The notes under the pieces were generated by a model. It was not told the origin of the DNA. It was given only the letters and a program-made list of their open reading frames with translations, and made no database searches. Made by a program: the position numbers and the translations under genes. Of a stretch of DNA of 64,000 bases, positions 7,941 to 47,786 are shown one piece after another. Positions within the stretch are counted from its first letter, which is position 1, and each line of letters begins with the position of its first letter. The stretch lies in the NCBI GenBank assembly GCA_025350865.1, contig JANXWZ010000238.1:80453-144452 (forward strand), given 5' to 3'. This DNA is from Rhodanobacteraceae bacterium. GTDB lineage: Bacteria > Acidobacteriota > Terriglobia > Terriglobales > Acidobacteriaceae.

Positions 7941-9578
7941 ATGCGGAAATTCGCGATGCAGGACTACGCAACGGCAGTGAGTGGGCGATGGATAAAGCAC
8001 GCAGCAGTTCTGGGACTCGCTGCGACCTGTGCGGCTGCGTCCGGACAGACCAGCGGCGGGGTCTTCCAGGTCACAAACATTCTTTCCGACGGCTTTGTTC
8101 CGGCGGCGAACACCGATGTCGCCTTCGTCGATCCGTGGGGCGTATCAGGAGCCAAGACCCTGTGGATCAACACGGCCGCAACCGGGTTCAGCTATGTCGT
8201 GCCTATCGTTACGCCTGCCCCGCCAACGCCAGCGGTTTCCTTTAAAGCCGTTGTGCCGCCAGCGCCTGGTACCACGGGAGTCGGTCAGCCCACCGGAACG
8301 ATCCAGAACACGACTGCGTCAGGGTTCGTTCTTTCCAATGGAGCAAAGGCGTCGTTCCTGTTTGCAACCCTGGATGGGACCGTGTCTGGATGGAACGGGG
8401 CACAGGCCGCCCAAGGTCAGCTCTCCCTGATTGCCATCAACAACAGCGCGAAGAAGGCCCAATACACCGGCATGGCGTTGGCCACCAATGCCAGCGGAAG
8501 CTACCTTCTGCTGCCGAATTTTGGAGCCGGCGGCAACGTTGAAATTTACAACACCAGCTTTCAGCCCGCGACACTCGCAGGAACATTTACCGACCCTAAC
8601 GTTCCTGCCGGTTACGCACCCTACGCTATTCACGTTATCGGAACTCAGGTGTTCGTGACCTATACCCTCCGCTCGACCACGAATTACCAGGAAACCCTGG
8701 GAACGAACACAGGATTTGTTTCGGTATTCGACGTGAACGGAACCTTCGTCTCGCGAGCGATTACTGGCGGGCTGTTGAATGCACCGTGGGGCGTCGCGAT
8801 AGCTCCCGCAGGCTTCGGCATCTATGCCGGCGCCTTGTTGGTGGGCAACTTCGGCGACGGGTTGATCACCGCCTACAATCCCACGACGTTTGCCTATCTC
8901 GGCACGGTCGCGGACAGCACCGGCAAAGCGATCGCGTATCCGGGACTCTGGGAGATTTTTTCCAACGCAAACGGGAATCCTGCGGCACTCTACTTTGTCG
9001 CCGGGCTCGCCAACGAGTCTCACGGGTTGTATGGATCGATCGCAAACTCCACGACAGCGACCAGCACTCCGACCTTCAACCTGAGCAGCGCGACCAAAGT
9101 GGCGTCCGTTGCGGTCGGATCGACGACGACGGTAGGCCTTAGCCTTGCTCCAGTCAACTCCTTCAACGGAACGGTTTCCATGAGTTGCACCGGACTCCCG
9201 GCAGGTGCTACATGCCAGTTCGGCACCGGCTTCGTCAGCATCTCTCCCACTGCGCCGACGACGGCATCGGTGACGATTACAACGCAGGCCAAGGTCGGAA
9301 GCCTGGTCCGTCCGATGGGACGTGGCGCGGCGGCAGGGATTGTCGTTGCGTTGATGCTGCCTTTCGGCGCGATTGCTCTTGGACGGCGTCGGAGACAGCT
9401 CGCCGGACTGCGGTTGGCCCTGATGTTGGCGCTGAGCGTCGCGACAGTAGGACTCTTCTCTGGTTGCAGTACCGCACTCAGCATTCCTGCGACGCCCACG
9501 GGAACTTCGAACGTGACGATCACCGCGACGTCACCCAGCGCTACGCAATCGACGGTGGTCGCCCTCACCGTTCAATGA
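7941..9578 (+). CDS. Secreted TIGR03118-family protein with Ig-like domain and membrane-hairpin C-terminus
   Basis: A 545-residue exported protein with an N-terminal signal peptide (hydrophobic stretch ending near AATCAAASGQ). Residues ~35-370 match the TIGR03118 beta-propeller-like family of unknown function (VDPWGVSG, PTGTIQNT, SGWNG, APWGVAIAP). An Ig-like domain follows (FNGTVSMSCTGLPAGATC). The end is a helix, an arginine cluster RRRR, a second helix finishing in LFSGCS, and a Thr/Ser-rich tail ending VALTVQ. The same C-terminal plan recurs in the GH28 protein at 43724. GAGG six bases upstream supports the start. A strong terminator follows at 9603. Confidence 0.82.
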   Translation: MRKFAMQDYATAVSGRWIKHAAVLGLAATCAAASGQTSGGVFQVTNILSDGFVPAANTDVAFVDPWGVSGAKTLWINTAATGFSYVVPIVTPAPPTPAVSFKAVVPPAPGTTGVGQPTGTIQNTTASGFVLSNGAKASFLFATLDGTVSGWNGAQAAQGQLSLIAINNSAKKAQYTGMALATNASGSYLLLPNFGAGGNVEIYNTSFQPATLAGTFTDPNVPAGYAPYAIHVIGTQVFVTYTLRSTTNYQETLGTNTGFVSVFDVNGTFVSRAITGGLLNAPWGVAIAPAGFGIYAGALLVGNFGDGLITAYNPTTFAYLGTVADSTGKAIAYPGLWEIFSNANGNPAALYFVAGLANESHGLYGSIANSTTATSTPTFNLSSATKVASVAVGSTTTVGLSLAPVNSFNGTVSMSCTGLPAGATCQFGTGFVSISPTAPTTASVTITTQAKVGSLVRPMGRGAAAGIVVALMLPFGAIALGRRRRQLAGLRLALMLALSVATVGLFSGCSTALSIPATPTGTSNVTITATSPSATQSTVVALTVQ

Positions 9579-20619: not shown

Positions 20620-21123
20620 TTACGCCTCGTCCGGCTGTTGGCGGAATATTTCGAGCAGCAGCAGACAAGCCCCGATAACGATGGCCGAGTCGGCGAGGTT
20701 GAAGTCGGGCCAGTGGTAATGGACGATCTTGACCTCCAGGAAGTCGACGACGTAGGAGAAGCGGATGCGGTCGTAGAGGTTGCCGATGGCTCCGCCGAGG
20801 ATTAGGCCGAGCGCGATACCGCTGGCCGAGACGCGACGGCCCATGCGCCAGATCATCCCCATGACGACGATGATGGCGACGATGGAGAAGGCGATGAGGG
20901 CGTTGCGGACCAGAGCCGGGGAGAGTGATTCGGCGAATAGCGAGAAGGCCGCGCCGGTATTGAAGACGTGCGAGAGGCGGAAGACGCCGGGGATGACGGA
21001 GATGAAGTTTCCGCGGGGGATGTTCTTGTCGATCCAGAGTTTTGATAGCCGGTCAAACAAGACGACGACGGCTGCGAGAAGCAGGAGATAGGGGCGGGAG
21101 TCGCGTTGGGTGGTGCTGTTCAT
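20620..21123 (-). CDS. lspA: Lipoprotein signal peptidase (signal peptidase II)
   Basis: 167 residues with four membrane helices. The catalytic aspartates are in GNLYDRIRFSYVVDFL and FNLADSAIVIG. LspA removes the signal peptide of diacylglycerated prolipoproteins after Lgt acts. I start it at ATG 21123 (MNSTTQRDSRP). The 21 extra residues in the track are encoded by a palindromic intergenic repeat and are unlikely to be real. It ends three bases from the convergent NTF2-like gene. It probably shares an operon with ileS upstream, an arrangement known elsewhere, but ~150 bp of repeats lie between them. Confidence 0.95.
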   Translation of the reverse strand: MNSTTQRDSRPYLLLLAAVVVLFDRLSKLWIDKNIPRGNFISVIPGVFRLSHVFNTGAAFSLFAESLSPALVRNALIAFSIVAIIVVMGMIWRMGRRVSASGIALGLILGGAIGNLYDRIRFSYVVDFLEVKIVHYHWPDFNLADSAIVIGACLLLLEIFRQQPDEA

Positions 21124-43235: not shown

Positions 43236-43723
43236 GGAGCTAACTCCTGGGAAGCATCAGATTGGGCTCGTAAGTGGACGCGGACGCCTCAGAATCGTGC
43301 ATGGTTCAAGGCGTAGAGATTCATTAGGATTGGGCCCTCTCCACGAGGGGATGGACGCCTCTGGAGCAGTACCGTTGTACAGGGTTGGCGGGATTCCGTC
43401 CAGACTCAGTTTCCATAGGAATTCCAAGTGTGGCTGCTATTTGGCGGGAGCCGCAACCACCTCACCGAAGCGGTCAGTTAGCTATTTCAGCCGGGGCTAC
43501 AGGCTAAAGTTGAACCGCATTGGGCTCCGGGGGGAGGACGCCGACAAGTTTGTCAAATCAACTAAATTGCAGCGTCCGTGAAGGCCGGAAAAATCTGGAT
43601 TGTCAGAGACGCTGCGCACATTAAGAATGGCGACGCGGTAAAAATACTAAATGTGGTCCGTCCTCTTGTTCGGTCGATACGGAACGTTCGTAAATCTTGG
43701 TATCTGCCTGGAGGCGTAGAGTG
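43236..43723. other. 488-bp intergenic region
   Basis: The divergent promoter region of the GDSL esterase and GH28 genes. Small hairpins exist (for example CCCTC-TCCAC-GAGGG near 43338), but no ORF, riboswitch or known operator is recognised. The stretch next to the GH28 gene is somewhat AT-richer (AAAAATACTAAATG), fitting a promoter there. Confidence 0.4.
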
Positions 43724-46453
43724 ATGATTCGTTGGGCCAAAATGTGTTCGCTGGGCTTGGTTGGTGTCGGGATGATGGCTGCATGTGCCAACGCAGCTGA
43801 AGCGCAGGATAGCCGCACTGTGACAGAGCCGGTGGTGCCTCCCAGCTGTGTGGTCCTGCCCGCTCAACAGGGAATCCTGAGCGGCGAACCAACGACCGAG
43901 ACGTCTGTGGACACTGCAACCGTGCAAGCCGCACTGACTGCCTGCCCGGCCGGACAGGCGGTTGACTTGTCAACCAGTGGAGGCAATAATGCATTTTTGA
44001 TCGGACCAATCAAGATTCCGGGTGGCGTGACACTTCTGGTAGATGGAAGCGTTACCGTCTTCGGTTCGCGCAATCCGGCGGACTACCAGGTGAGCACGGC
44101 CGGCGTGGAGACGTGCGGTACTGTAGGCACGGCAGGGAATGGCTGCAAGTCGCTGATCACGATGGCCAGCGCCAACTCCGCGATCATGGGGTATGGCGTG
44201 ATCGACGGGCGCGGTCAGGACAAATTGATCGTAAACGGGACAGCGGCGACGTTTTCGTGGTGGGACAATGCCGGGTTTGCGCAGAAGAGCAGCGGCTCGC
44301 AGAATAATCCGATCCTTGTCTCAGCGAGCGGGGCTAACGCAGTCTTCTACAGGATCACGTTTCGCAACTCGCCCATGTTCCACGTCAAGTGGACGGGAAA
44401 TCTGACCAACAAGACCGGCTTTACGGCCTGGGGTGTCAAGGTGGCAACGCCATTCAGTGCGCGCAACACGGACGGTATCGACCCATCCGGGTTGAACATC
44501 TCGGTGCTCAACTCGTGGATTTCCGACGGCGACGACAACGTGGCTGTCAGCGCTTCGAGTCCCGCCCAGAACATCACGATAGCGAACGTGAATACCTATA
44601 GCGGCCACGGCATTTCGGTGGGCAGCATTACCAAGGGCGGCCTCACCAACATGCTGGTGCAGAACATCACCCAGATGGGGACGCCTACAGATTCAAACGG
44701 GATCGGCATTCGCATCAAGGCGCAGCAATCGAATGGTGGCCTGGTGCAGAACGTGACGTACCAAAACATCTGTAGCGCGGGCAATCGCGTTGCGATCTAC
44801 CTTTCGCCCTACTACAGCACGTCGGCGGGAACCTCGTACCCCAGCCTGCAAAACATCACCTACAGAAATATCCACGTCATTACCGAAGGTTTAGTGACAT
44901 TGCAGGGCTATTCGAACACGGGCGGCACGGTGGTGAACCCGTCTACCATCACGCTGGACAACGTGGTCTTCGACACGCTGCTGCAAAAGGATTTCAGCCC
45001 TGCGGAACAGAACCTGCAGGTGACAGTTGGACCCGGACCGGTATCGCCGCTGTTTCTCTCGCAGACAGGCACCAACGTGAGCTTCACGGGGTCAGTTACA
45101 AGCCCGAACCAGGCGCCTTACCCTTGCTCGGCGAGCCAGTTCCAGTATTTAGTGGGCGAGCTATTTGCCTCAAACACAACCTCGACCAACCTCCAGACGG
45201 AAACCCTGAATGCGCCAACATCGGTGACACTGAACGCCATCGTCCAGCCGGCCATGAGCCAGGTGAGCTACACGTCGAACAGCAGCGGCGGCAGCTATAC
45301 CGGTACTCCGGCACCGACCGCGCCGGTGCAGTTCGTGGAAGGAACCACGATCGTCGGAACAGGTACGCTCGGCGGCAACGGGACGATAGCTTCGCTGACG
45401 ATCCCGGGTGTTCGACCGGGTGTGCATACCTACAAAGCGCAGTACGCGGGCGATGCGACTTACACCAATCCGTTGAACTTCGGAAGCGTCACGGTGAATG
45501 TGGTCGGCGTTGCGACCAAGACGACCGTTACGACGACGGGCAGCACGGTCTTTGGCGGCTCGTTGTCGCTGGTAGCGACCGTGACTCCGGCCAGCGGGAC
45601 GAACCCCACCGGAACGGTTCAGTTTCTGGACGGCACAACAATCTTGGGGACGGCGACCGTGACCAACGGATCGGCGACGCTCCCTGTTTCTCTCTCTGGC
45701 GGAATTCATAATCTCTCGGCGACTTACCAGGGCGACACGACCTTCGGCGTTTCAACGAGCAGCAACCTGGCGGCGACGATCACTCCCGCAGCGAGCACCA
45801 CCAGCGTGACGGCGAGTGCTACGGCGATCAACCCCGGCGCAAGCACCGTGTTGACTGTGACGGTGGCAGGCGTACCGGGAGCGAAGTCTCCAGGCGGAAC
45901 GCTGGGGGTGACCGATGCCGGAGTGAGCGTCGGAGCGGCGTCACTGAACGCGAGCGGTGTTGCGACAGTGACATTGCCGCTGAGTAGCCTCGGTTCACAC
46001 ACCCTGACAGTGGCCTATAGCGGTGACATAAATTACAACGTAAGCGCGGGTACGATTGCGCTTGCAGTGGTTCAGCCGTTTTCTATCTCCGCGACCAACC
46101 TGACCACATCACTGGCACCCGGGGCAGGGGTTACGATTCCCATCACGGTCGCACCCGCCGGCGGCTTTAACGGCTCGGCAACGATGAGCTGCACCAGCCC
46201 GGTGGTCTACGTCACCTGCAGCGTCGCGCCAACGACGGTAGCCCTGAGCGGCAACACGCCGGTTCAGGTGTCGGCGATCATTACGGTCGCCCCGGTAGTC
46301 GGTTCCCTGCGGTTGCCGGGCTCGGGTTCCGCCCAGGGGATTGTGCTGGCTGTTCTGCTTCTGTTGGGAGTATTTGGGTTCGCCCGCCGTCGCAGCAAGT
46401 GGCGGGCGTTGGCGCTGTTCGTCGTGGCAACCGACTTTGCGGGATCGCGCTGA
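43724..46453 (+). CDS. GH28 polygalacturonase with Ig-like repeats; C-terminal end frameshifted
   Basis: About 909 residues from ATG 43724 (GGAGG nine bases upstream; GTG at 43721 is the alternative). A signal peptide is followed by a GH28 right-handed beta-helix with the catalytic blocks NTDGIDPSG, SDGDDNVAV, GHGISVGS and IRIKAQ, which cut galacturonan chains. From ~500 on come three Ig-like (Big_3-type) repeats (VQFVEGTTIVGTGTLGGNG, VQFLDGTTILGTATVTNGSA) and then the Ig-helix-RRR module also seen in the TIGR03118 protein. The frame breaks at ~46442: a one-base shift would continue GIALTGCGTCYS, and a second opposite shift at ~46534 restores the original frame to a TAG at 46576. Confidence 0.88.
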   Translation: MIRWAKMCSLGLVGVGMMAACANAAEAQDSRTVTEPVVPPSCVVLPAQQGILSGEPTTETSVDTATVQAALTACPAGQAVDLSTSGGNNAFLIGPIKIPGGVTLLVDGSVTVFGSRNPADYQVSTAGVETCGTVGTAGNGCKSLITMASANSAIMGYGVIDGRGQDKLIVNGTAATFSWWDNAGFAQKSSGSQNNPILVSASGANAVFYRITFRNSPMFHVKWTGNLTNKTGFTAWGVKVATPFSARNTDGIDPSGLNISVLNSWISDGDDNVAVSASSPAQNITIANVNTYSGHGISVGSITKGGLTNMLVQNITQMGTPTDSNGIGIRIKAQQSNGGLVQNVTYQNICSAGNRVAIYLSPYYSTSAGTSYPSLQNITYRNIHVITEGLVTLQGYSNTGGTVVNPSTITLDNVVFDTLLQKDFSPAEQNLQVTVGPGPVSPLFLSQTGTNVSFTGSVTSPNQAPYPCSASQFQYLVGELFASNTTSTNLQTETLNAPTSVTLNAIVQPAMSQVSYTSNSSGGSYTGTPAPTAPVQFVEGTTIVGTGTLGGNGTIASLTIPGVRPGVHTYKAQYAGDATYTNPLNFGSVTVNVVGVATKTTVTTTGSTVFGGSLSLVATVTPASGTNPTGTVQFLDGTTILGTATVTNGSATLPVSLSGGIHNLSATYQGDTTFGVSTSSNLAATITPAASTTSVTASATAINPGASTVLTVTVAGVPGAKSPGGTLGVTDAGVSVGAASLNASGVATVTLPLSSLGSHTLTVAYSGDINYNVSAGTIALAVVQPFSISATNLTTSLAPGAGVTIPITVAPAGGFNGSATMSCTSPVVYVTCSVAPTTVALSGNTPVQVSAIITVAPVVGSLRLPGSGSAQGIVLAVLLLLGVFGFARRRSKWRALALFVVATDFAGSR

Positions 46454-46576
46454 CGGGTTGCGGCACTTGTTATTCGGTGGAGCTGCCGCCTGCCGGAACT
46501 CAGGTGGTGACGGTGACTGGGAACGGGGCCGGCCGTGACGTCTTCAGTCAACATCACCGTTACGGTGACGAATTAG
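46442..46576 (+). other. Displaced C-terminal tail of the GH28 protein
   Basis: The +/- shifted reading gives ALTGCGTCYSVELPPAGTQ, VVTVTGNGAG and then VTSSVNITVTVTN and a stop. This matches the LFSGCST ... VALTVQ tail of the TIGR03118 protein at 7941. A missing base near GCGGGATCG (46439-46447) and an extra base near GGCCGGCCG (46527-46535) explain it. Confidence 0.75.
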
Positions 46577-46607
46577 AACGGATTTTCAATGCTCTAAGCA
46601 CAAACAA

Positions 46608-46664
46608 CAGATCCCTACGGGATGACAACAAAGTTCCTTTTGTTTGTCATCCCGTAGGGATCTG
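46608..46664. terminator. Perfect 21-bp hairpin, bidirectional terminator candidate
   Basis: CAGATCCCTACGGGATGACAA (46608-46628) pairs perfectly with 46644-46664 across a 15-base loop, followed by CTTTTG. It separates the convergent GH28 and pdxS genes. Each arm contains a GCAGATCCCTACGGGATGACA-type unit, also found as a single unit at 47787-47807. Confidence 0.78.
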
Positions 46665-46675
46665 CTTTTGGACCC

Positions 46676-47656
46676 TTACCAGCCGCGAGTCTGCATCATT
46701 TCGGCTTCGGGAATGTTGCCGACGGCGAGGCCCTTCATTGCGCCCAGGCACTCTTCGCTGGCCTCGGCGATAATCTGCGGATTGTCGAAGTGCGTGGCCG
46801 CGCGGACGATTGCCTTGGCACGCGAAACCGCTTCCTTGTACTCGTTCGGAGTGAGCGGGTTGCCGCTAGGGTCCATGCCCACTTCGAGGCGGATATTGCC
46901 CTCCTTCATGAAGATGCCGGAGCCGACGAAGACCGTCTGCGCGCCAAGCTGCATCATGAGGGCCGCGTCGGCGGGTGTTGCGATGCCGCCGGCAGAGAAG
47001 TTGGGAACGGGAAGCTTGCCGGTTTTGGCGACCATGACGACCAGCTCGTAAGGAGCCCGGAGGTTCTTTGCAGCAGCGTAGAGCTCCTGGTCGTCGAGGA
47101 CCGTGAGAGCCTTGATCTCGCTGGTGATCTGGCGCATGTGGCGGACAGCGTGAATGACGTCGCCGGTGCCGGGCTCGCCCTTGGTGCGGATCATGGCCGC
47201 ACCTTCGGCGATGCGCCGGAGAGCCTCGCCAAGGTCTTTGGCGCCGCAGACGAAGGGAGTCTTGAAGGAGTGCTTGTCGATGTGGTGGAGCTCATCGGCA
47301 GGGGTGAGAACTTCGGACTCGTCGATGAAGTCGACGGCAAGGGTTTCGAGCACCTGAGCCTCAACGAAATGCCCTATGCGGACCTTGGCCATGACGGGGA
47401 TGGAGACGGCTTTCTGGATCGCCTTGATCATGCCGGGGTGCGACATGCGGGCGACGCCGCCCTGGGCGCGGATCATGGCCGGGACGCGCTCGAGGGCCAT
47501 CACGGCGACTGCGCCGGCCTGCTCTGCGATGATGGCCTGGTCGACGTCCATGACGTCCATACTGACGCCGCCTTTGAGCATCTCGGCGAGGCCGGTCTTG
47601 AGGCGGAGGCCAGGGCTGGTGAAGGATTTGTGTCCGTTTGAGGTATGGTCGGGCAT
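46676..47656 (-). CDS. pdxS: Pyridoxal 5'-phosphate synthase lyase subunit
   Basis: 326 residues. It makes PLP from ribose-5-phosphate, glyceraldehyde-3-phosphate and ammonia supplied by PdxT. The imine-forming lysines are in [15 protein letters not shown] and [13 protein letters not shown], and [20 protein letters not shown] is the phosphate-binding region. ATG 47656 has AAAGGAG eight bases upstream; the 21 extra residues of the track are dropped. The deoxyxylulose-independent PLP route is therefore present, with the two subunits encoded apart. Confidence 0.96.
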
Positions 47657-47786
47657 GGCAAAGTCTCCTTTGAGAGGTGTGGGTAGCTCAAGTTGTTGAG
47701 TTTGCCGGGGCGCTCTCACGCGGGAGCGATTGATTTCCTGACCGGAGTCTTTAGTTTAGCAGGAGTTGGGAGAAACAACGACAACC

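Follow-up and report, generated by a model that had tools for sequence, protein, structure and literature searches.

A C-terminal module on unrelated exported proteins of Acidobacteriaceae: a putative lipoprotein-type signal inside a split Ig-like domain

A GH28 polygalacturonase and a TIGR03118 protein, both encoded in the analysed window (the whole stretch of 64,000 nucleotides), carry the same C-terminal module, which is a shared tail on many unrelated exported proteins of this Acidobacteriaceae genome. We consider it likely that the module serves as a lipid anchor at the C-terminal end, made from a membrane hairpin inserted in an Ig-like domain, with the lipoprotein enzymes Lgt and LspA acting on an internal signal. 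The module itself is not new, since it is already deposited in NCBIfam as NF058595 (invert_tail, “lipo-invert putative C-terminal anchoring domain”, release 20.0, 2026); a literature search found no paper on “lipo-invert” and nothing useful on an internal lipobox. What is new here is the structural reading, that of a lipoprotein signal within a split Ig domain. A previous sequence-only reading of the window had proposed a module of a helix, an Arg cluster, a hydrophobic stretch with a GC motif and a tail; the present analysis goes beyond it in that the “tail” appears to complete, as its second half, the Ig-like domain that begins ahead of the helix, and the second helix with its GC looks like a lipoprotein-type signal.

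Shared C-termini of unrelated proteins

The C-termini of the GH28 and TIGR03118 proteins align over 104 amino acids (38%, BLASTP E=1e-12; E=6e-12 when searched against the whole genome). Upstream of the module and at the N-termini the two sequences show no match (best E=0.14), which rules out paralogy of the two genes over their whole length. Further carriers in the genome, for which the sequence-only reading suggested a search, are numerous. Searching the own genome with the TIGR03118 C-terminus located the whole or most of the module at 12 additional sites, and a 12-row profile retrieved about 15 intact copies besides the GH28 copy, with full-length matches down to E=1e-52. With NF058595, 11 loci of the genome exceed the curated cut-off of 37 bits, and the TIGR03118 copy of the window scores above it; in a scan of 20 modules, the model matched all 20 (best E=1e-24).

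In this genome the copies are located at the C-terminus of their hosts, which comprise, apart from TIGR03118 and GH28, a nuclease (a lamin-tail/exo-endonuclease protein), two pro-kumamolisin peptidases, two DUF7948/beta-propeller proteins, an FG-GAP protein and a DUF5123 protein. Several of the module proteins with a readable N-terminus start with a signal peptide that is, by eye, type I-like (an A-x-A end followed by Gln). The coordinates of the features within the window are collected in Table 1.

Table 1. Features of the window related to the module (window coordinates; TM1 and TM2, first and second hydrophobic helix)
Feature	Coordinates	Strand	Evidence
TIGR03118 protein with intact module	7941..9578	+	TIGR03118 3.3e-72; NF058595 42.2 bits, cut-off 37
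Intact module of the TIGR03118 protein	9075..9575	+	Alignment, profile match of 169 bits, predicted secondary structure
TIGR03118 module, Ig first half	9075-9320	+	
TIGR03118 module, TM1	about 9330-9377	+	
TIGR03118 module, RRRR	9378-9389	+	
TIGR03118 module, TM2	about 9399-9458	+	
TIGR03118 module, lipobox Cys	9465-9467	+	
TIGR03118 module, tail strands F and G	to 9575	+	
lspA, signal peptidase II	20635..21102	-	TIGR00077 6.1e-35; single match in the genome, inside the window
GH28 polygalacturonase ORF	43697..46453	+	Pfam Glyco_hydro_28 1.9e-34, Big_3_5 5.8e-32; ORF table
GH28 module, piece 1 (Ig-like first half, TM1, RRR, start of TM2; profile 1-122)	46079..46429	+	Profile 75.8 bits, E=9.9e-21; BLASTP E=1e-12 to the TIGR03118 C-terminus
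GH28 module, TM1 (GIVLAVLLLLGVFGF)	46337..46381	+	Sequence; position matches TM1 in 74 aligned modules
GH28 module, ARRRSK directly after TM1	46382-46399	+	Sequence
GH28 module, piece 2, other frame (lipobox LTGC and tail strand F; profile 127-157)	46444..46536	+	Profile 20.4 bits, E=0.001; ORF of 46399
GH28 module, last tail strand (AVTSSVNITVTVTN, then stop), first frame again	46532..46576	+	Read from sequence

An Ig-like domain split by a hairpin

The module consists of the last Ig-like domain of the secreted protein, broken between strands E and F by an insert of about 70 residues. The insert begins with TM1 and continues through a loop with 3-7 Lys/Arg to TM2, whose end is lipobox-like ([LVIA]-[ST]-[GAS]-C); a Gly/Ser linker then leads on to strands F and G, which end the protein. 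The stretch that precedes TM1 belongs to a domain type of the form FTLS..TVxxGxSxTxTLTxTPxxGFxGTVxLSC..LPAxxTCxFxP..xTLTIxT, and the tail, TPxGTYTxTVTATxGxxSHTxxxTLTVQ followed by the stop, resembles the last two strands of this domain. Three loci provide uninterrupted versions, in which profile positions 1-58 or 1-71 directly adjoin 135-176 or 142-176 and the hairpin is missing.

A model built from 13 uninterrupted domains was used to score the tails of 74 modules on their own, together with shuffled versions of the same tails. The tails scored 18.9 bits on average, compared to 2.5 for the shuffled ones; all 74 exceeded the mean of their own shuffles, and 70 of 73 alignments reached the C-terminal end of the model. 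When the hairpin was excised to give chimaeras, the score of the best domain rose through the tail in just 45/74 cases, and 50/74 were aligned as one domain. In other families, matches of uninterrupted Ig domains to NF058595 are confined to its tail part, at positions 74-113. AlphaFold2 (AF2) models of the module, of low confidence (pLDDT 57 and 63), consist of six strands, two helices and two strands; in a Foldseek search the better model matched Ig-like folds end to end, weakly (E of 1.5e-3 and weaker), nearly all of the matches being Ig-like, and no fold match in the PDB reached E 0.001. Judging from these sequence comparisons, the tail is the last pair of strands of the same Ig domain.

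The second helix as a probable lipoprotein-type signal

TM2 resembles the type II signal peptide of lipoproteins, as suggested by the residues that surround its end in 74 distinct modules. A cysteine follows TM2 in all 74; it is preceded at position -1 by Gly (58), Ala (12) or Ser (4), at -2 mostly by Ser or Thr and at -3 mostly by Leu, Ile, Ala or Val, residues downstream of it are Gly/Ser-rich, and 71 of the tails hold no second cysteine. The loop between TM1 and TM2 is basic throughout, its 3-7 Lys/Arg being accompanied by zero or one Asp/Glu. From the lipobox to the C-terminus there are 36-56 residues, so the signal is internal rather than N-terminal. A pattern like PS51257 is found in 58/74 boxes and missed by 16 (for example LLNGC and FNTGC), and the strict form [LVI][ASTVI][GAS]C fits only 35; lipidation may therefore not apply to all modules. 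A baseline of N-terminal lipoproteins comprised 11 cases, with the -1 residue fixed by the filter, and was thus not used for the preference at this position.

Weak matches to the TM2 part of the profile in the own genome point in the same direction, five of them being N-terminal lipoprotein-type signal peptides; two others (L044 and L101) are not signals of this kind. The first of these (contig C213, 9161-9298) has a TM-RKKSSTGRR-TM-SGC hairpin and, behind it, an unrelated tail that is not of the Ig type. The enzyme that the lipobox would require, LspA, is encoded in the window by the only signal peptidase II gene found in the genome.

The disrupted copy in the polygalacturonase

The GH28 ORF encodes three Big_3_5 Ig repeats besides the GH28 domain and ends prematurely within TM2 of the module. 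The residues quoted in the sequence-only reading are all present in the DNA: FNGSATMSCTS, the TM1 helix and ARRRSKW in the frame of the GH28 ORF, LTGCGT (Cys codon 46459-46461) and TQVVTVTGNG in that of the ORF of 46399, and the VTVT end. An independent profile, made from the module copies other than that of GH28, matches this copy as two adjacent pieces, in order, in different frames and 15 bases apart. The shifted frame reported for this C-terminus is present in the assembly, and there are in fact two compensating frame changes, one at 46429-46444 and the other at about 46525-46532, where a GGGG run adjoins it; behind the latter the first GH28 frame is regained (VTSSVNITVTVTN at 46532-46573, with the stop at 46574-46576).

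In the assembly the GH28 copy is thus disrupted and lacks the lipobox and the tail in its own frame. Because of the frame changes it scores only 12.8 bits against NF058595 in one reading frame, which is under the cut-off. The frame changes may result from decay or from a sequencing or assembly error; unless they are assembly errors, TM1 and the Arg cluster would be left as the sole anchor of this protein. A search for a GH28 orthologue whose tail is intact, by which the frame changes could be judged, found none; the relatives' GH28 proteins have no Ig repeats. Nine of the latter, about 800-890 aa long, seem by eye to be fused to a pectinesterase-like domain and are devoid of both Ig repeats and the module. 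A paralogue in the own genome (50% identity, contig C227) has more than 2200 aa and many Ig repeats, and runs off its contig with its C-terminus beyond the assembly.

Downstream of the GH28 gene, a long inverted repeat (GATCCCTACGGGATGACAA...TTGTCATCCCGTAGGGATC, 46605-46675) separates it from a convergent ORF (46676-47719, minus strand) that is PdxS-like (pyridoxal 5'-phosphate synthase), by eye only. A terminator scan found terminator-like stems on both strands of the repeat, which is probably a two-way terminator.

Distribution and alternation with other C-termini

Within Acidobacteriaceae, the family from which the window derives, the module is nearly universal, with matches above the NF058595 cut-off in 144/150 genomes and 77/79 genera. 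In a sample of 396 genomes of the phylum it was matched in 44/44 members of the family compared to 7/352 others, and only two of these seven (G216 and G272) hold a full module; none of 14 control genomes exceeded the cut-off. The idea of a wide spread in the phylum was rejected, since most of the outside matches are the tail strands of plain Ig domains (four loci) or an N-terminal lipoprotein signal (one locus). The two full modules, one in each genome, occur in another family of the phylum (f42) and may reflect transfer or an older origin. A search for related loci returned ten named ones from Acidobacteriaceae, including Edaphobacter lichenicola, when a narrower alignment served as the query, and no loci with a 20-row alignment or the TIGR03118 protein.

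TIGR03118 proteins allow the module to be compared with other C-termini at the same place. Such proteins end with lipo-invert in the own genome, in G036 and G094, twice in G103 and in one copy each of G073 and G130; the second copy in G130 has, by eye, a PEP-CTERM-like end, and bare C-termini are found in G061, G084, G147 and the second copy of G073. In G073 and G130, paralogues of one genome thus differ, one copy carrying lipo-invert and the other a PEP-CTERM-like or bare end. An exosortase is encoded in the own genome. Replacement of a known sorting tag by the module at the same place makes a similar purpose likely. Together with the unrelated exported hosts, the occurrence in nearly all genera of the family and the naming in NCBIfam, this alternation supports the sorting or anchoring function that the sequence-only reading had put forward, and as far as comparative evidence goes a role in C-terminal anchoring is well supported.

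Alternative explanations

The same architecture could also be produced by a plain two-pass hairpin in an Ig domain, with TM1 and TM2 as an inner-membrane anchor and a cysteine that is neither lipidated nor a site of cleavage. For anchoring, a pair of hydrophobic helices joined by a strictly basic loop is sufficient, and some of the boxes are poor lipoboxes; however, a mere anchor requires neither an invariant cysteine, nor the restriction of position -1 to Gly, Ala and Ser, nor the Gly/Ser linker, and the ability of the TM2 part of the profile to find genuine N-terminal lipoprotein signals also speaks for more than a hairpin. We regard this explanation as unlikely. Somewhat less likely still is that TM1 and RRR form a tripartite tag of the PEP-CTERM kind, cut near TM1 by a dedicated sortase-like or intramembrane protease, the lipidated tail being a new anchor or a by-product. 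TM1 with its Arg cluster has the appropriate shape, PEP-CTERM is found at this position on a TIGR03118 paralogue, the own genome encodes an exosortase, and MYXO-CTERM offers a precedent for an invariant Cys combined with cleavage (PMC11980579). Yet such tags end after the Arg cluster, while TM2, the box and the tail are conserved here, and the alignments contain no conserved signature motif upstream of TM1.

Models of known C-terminal sorting tags (NCBIfam, MYXO-CTERM/PEP-CTERM and others) do not match the scanned modules, with the exception of a weak match of PACE-CTERM-PROT (0.014) to one member; the other known tags were rejected, no model fitting and TM2, box and tail following the Arg cluster in all modules. 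Finally, Ig repeats are rich in Thr, Val and Gly and diverge fast, so that a resemblance by functionless low-complexity drift in such repeats and Arg-rich helices has to be considered, but the strength of the full-length profile matches, the presence in almost all genomes of the family and the invariant Cys refute it in substance, and we deem it extremely improbable.

Proposed mechanism

According to the favoured reading, a lipid anchor made from an inserted hairpin, the protein would be exported by Sec through its N-terminal type I signal until TM1 stops the transfer. TM2 would serve as an internal type II signal peptide, and Lgt would add diacylglycerol to its Cys. LspA would cut in front of the lipidated Cys to give a lipopeptide of 36-56 residues, whose two strands would complete the Ig sandwich, so that the large N-terminal chain would stay bound. 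The attachment point of the enzyme or stalk would thereby lie at the C-terminal end, opposite to that of an ordinary lipoprotein. As the cut would leave the hairpin on the N-terminal chain in the inner membrane, display on the outer membrane would need an extra step, perhaps a second cleavage that removes TM1 and lets the complex move there. In its most specific form, with LspA cutting inside the Ig domain, strand complementation alone keeping the large secreted chain non-covalently on its lipidated C-terminal peptide, and surface enzymes throughout the family being displayed as such split-Ig “inverted lipoproteins”, the proposal is more tentative, and we would give it slightly less than an even chance.

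Relation to known systems and implications

The NF058595 model shares with the module the strand before TM1, TM1, the basic loop, TM2, the Cys and the tail, but it starts at the last strand before TM1, omits the first half of the Ig domain and has a name that does not involve a split domain. Ordinary bacterial lipoproteins with a type II signal, processed by Lgt and LspA, share the basic loop, the hydrophobic stretch, the lipobox Cys with Gly, Ala or Ser at -1, and the Gly/Ser linker; in contrast to theirs, the signal of the module is internal, near the C-terminus and behind a stop-transfer helix, in proteins with a separate type I-like N-terminal signal peptide. Standard signal-peptide predictors read N-termini. 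As with PEP-CTERM/exosortase substrates, TM1 and an Arg cluster are found in the same place on TIGR03118 proteins, whereas a PEP motif is absent and the chain goes on with TM2, the lipobox and Ig strands. MYXO-CTERM, of the MYXO-CTERM/myxosortase system, likewise anchors secreted proteins of unrelated kinds at the C-terminus, and it shares the invariant Cys, a helix, an Arg cluster and predicted lipidation (PMC11980579). It has just one helix, located behind the Cys, and lacks a defined lipobox (PMC11980579), whereas the Cys of the module follows the second helix and is accompanied by a lipobox and a folded tail.

If the proposed reading is true, it would explain a recently named and unpublished domain and add an internal type II signal peptide to those known, with the ordinary lipoprotein enzymes being used at an internal position and the domain closing around the cut. 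It would provide a testable prediction for about a dozen proteins per genome, and it would mean that Acidobacteriaceae, which are abundant soil bacteria, use a lipid at the C-terminal end to anchor many extracellular enzymes and stalk proteins.
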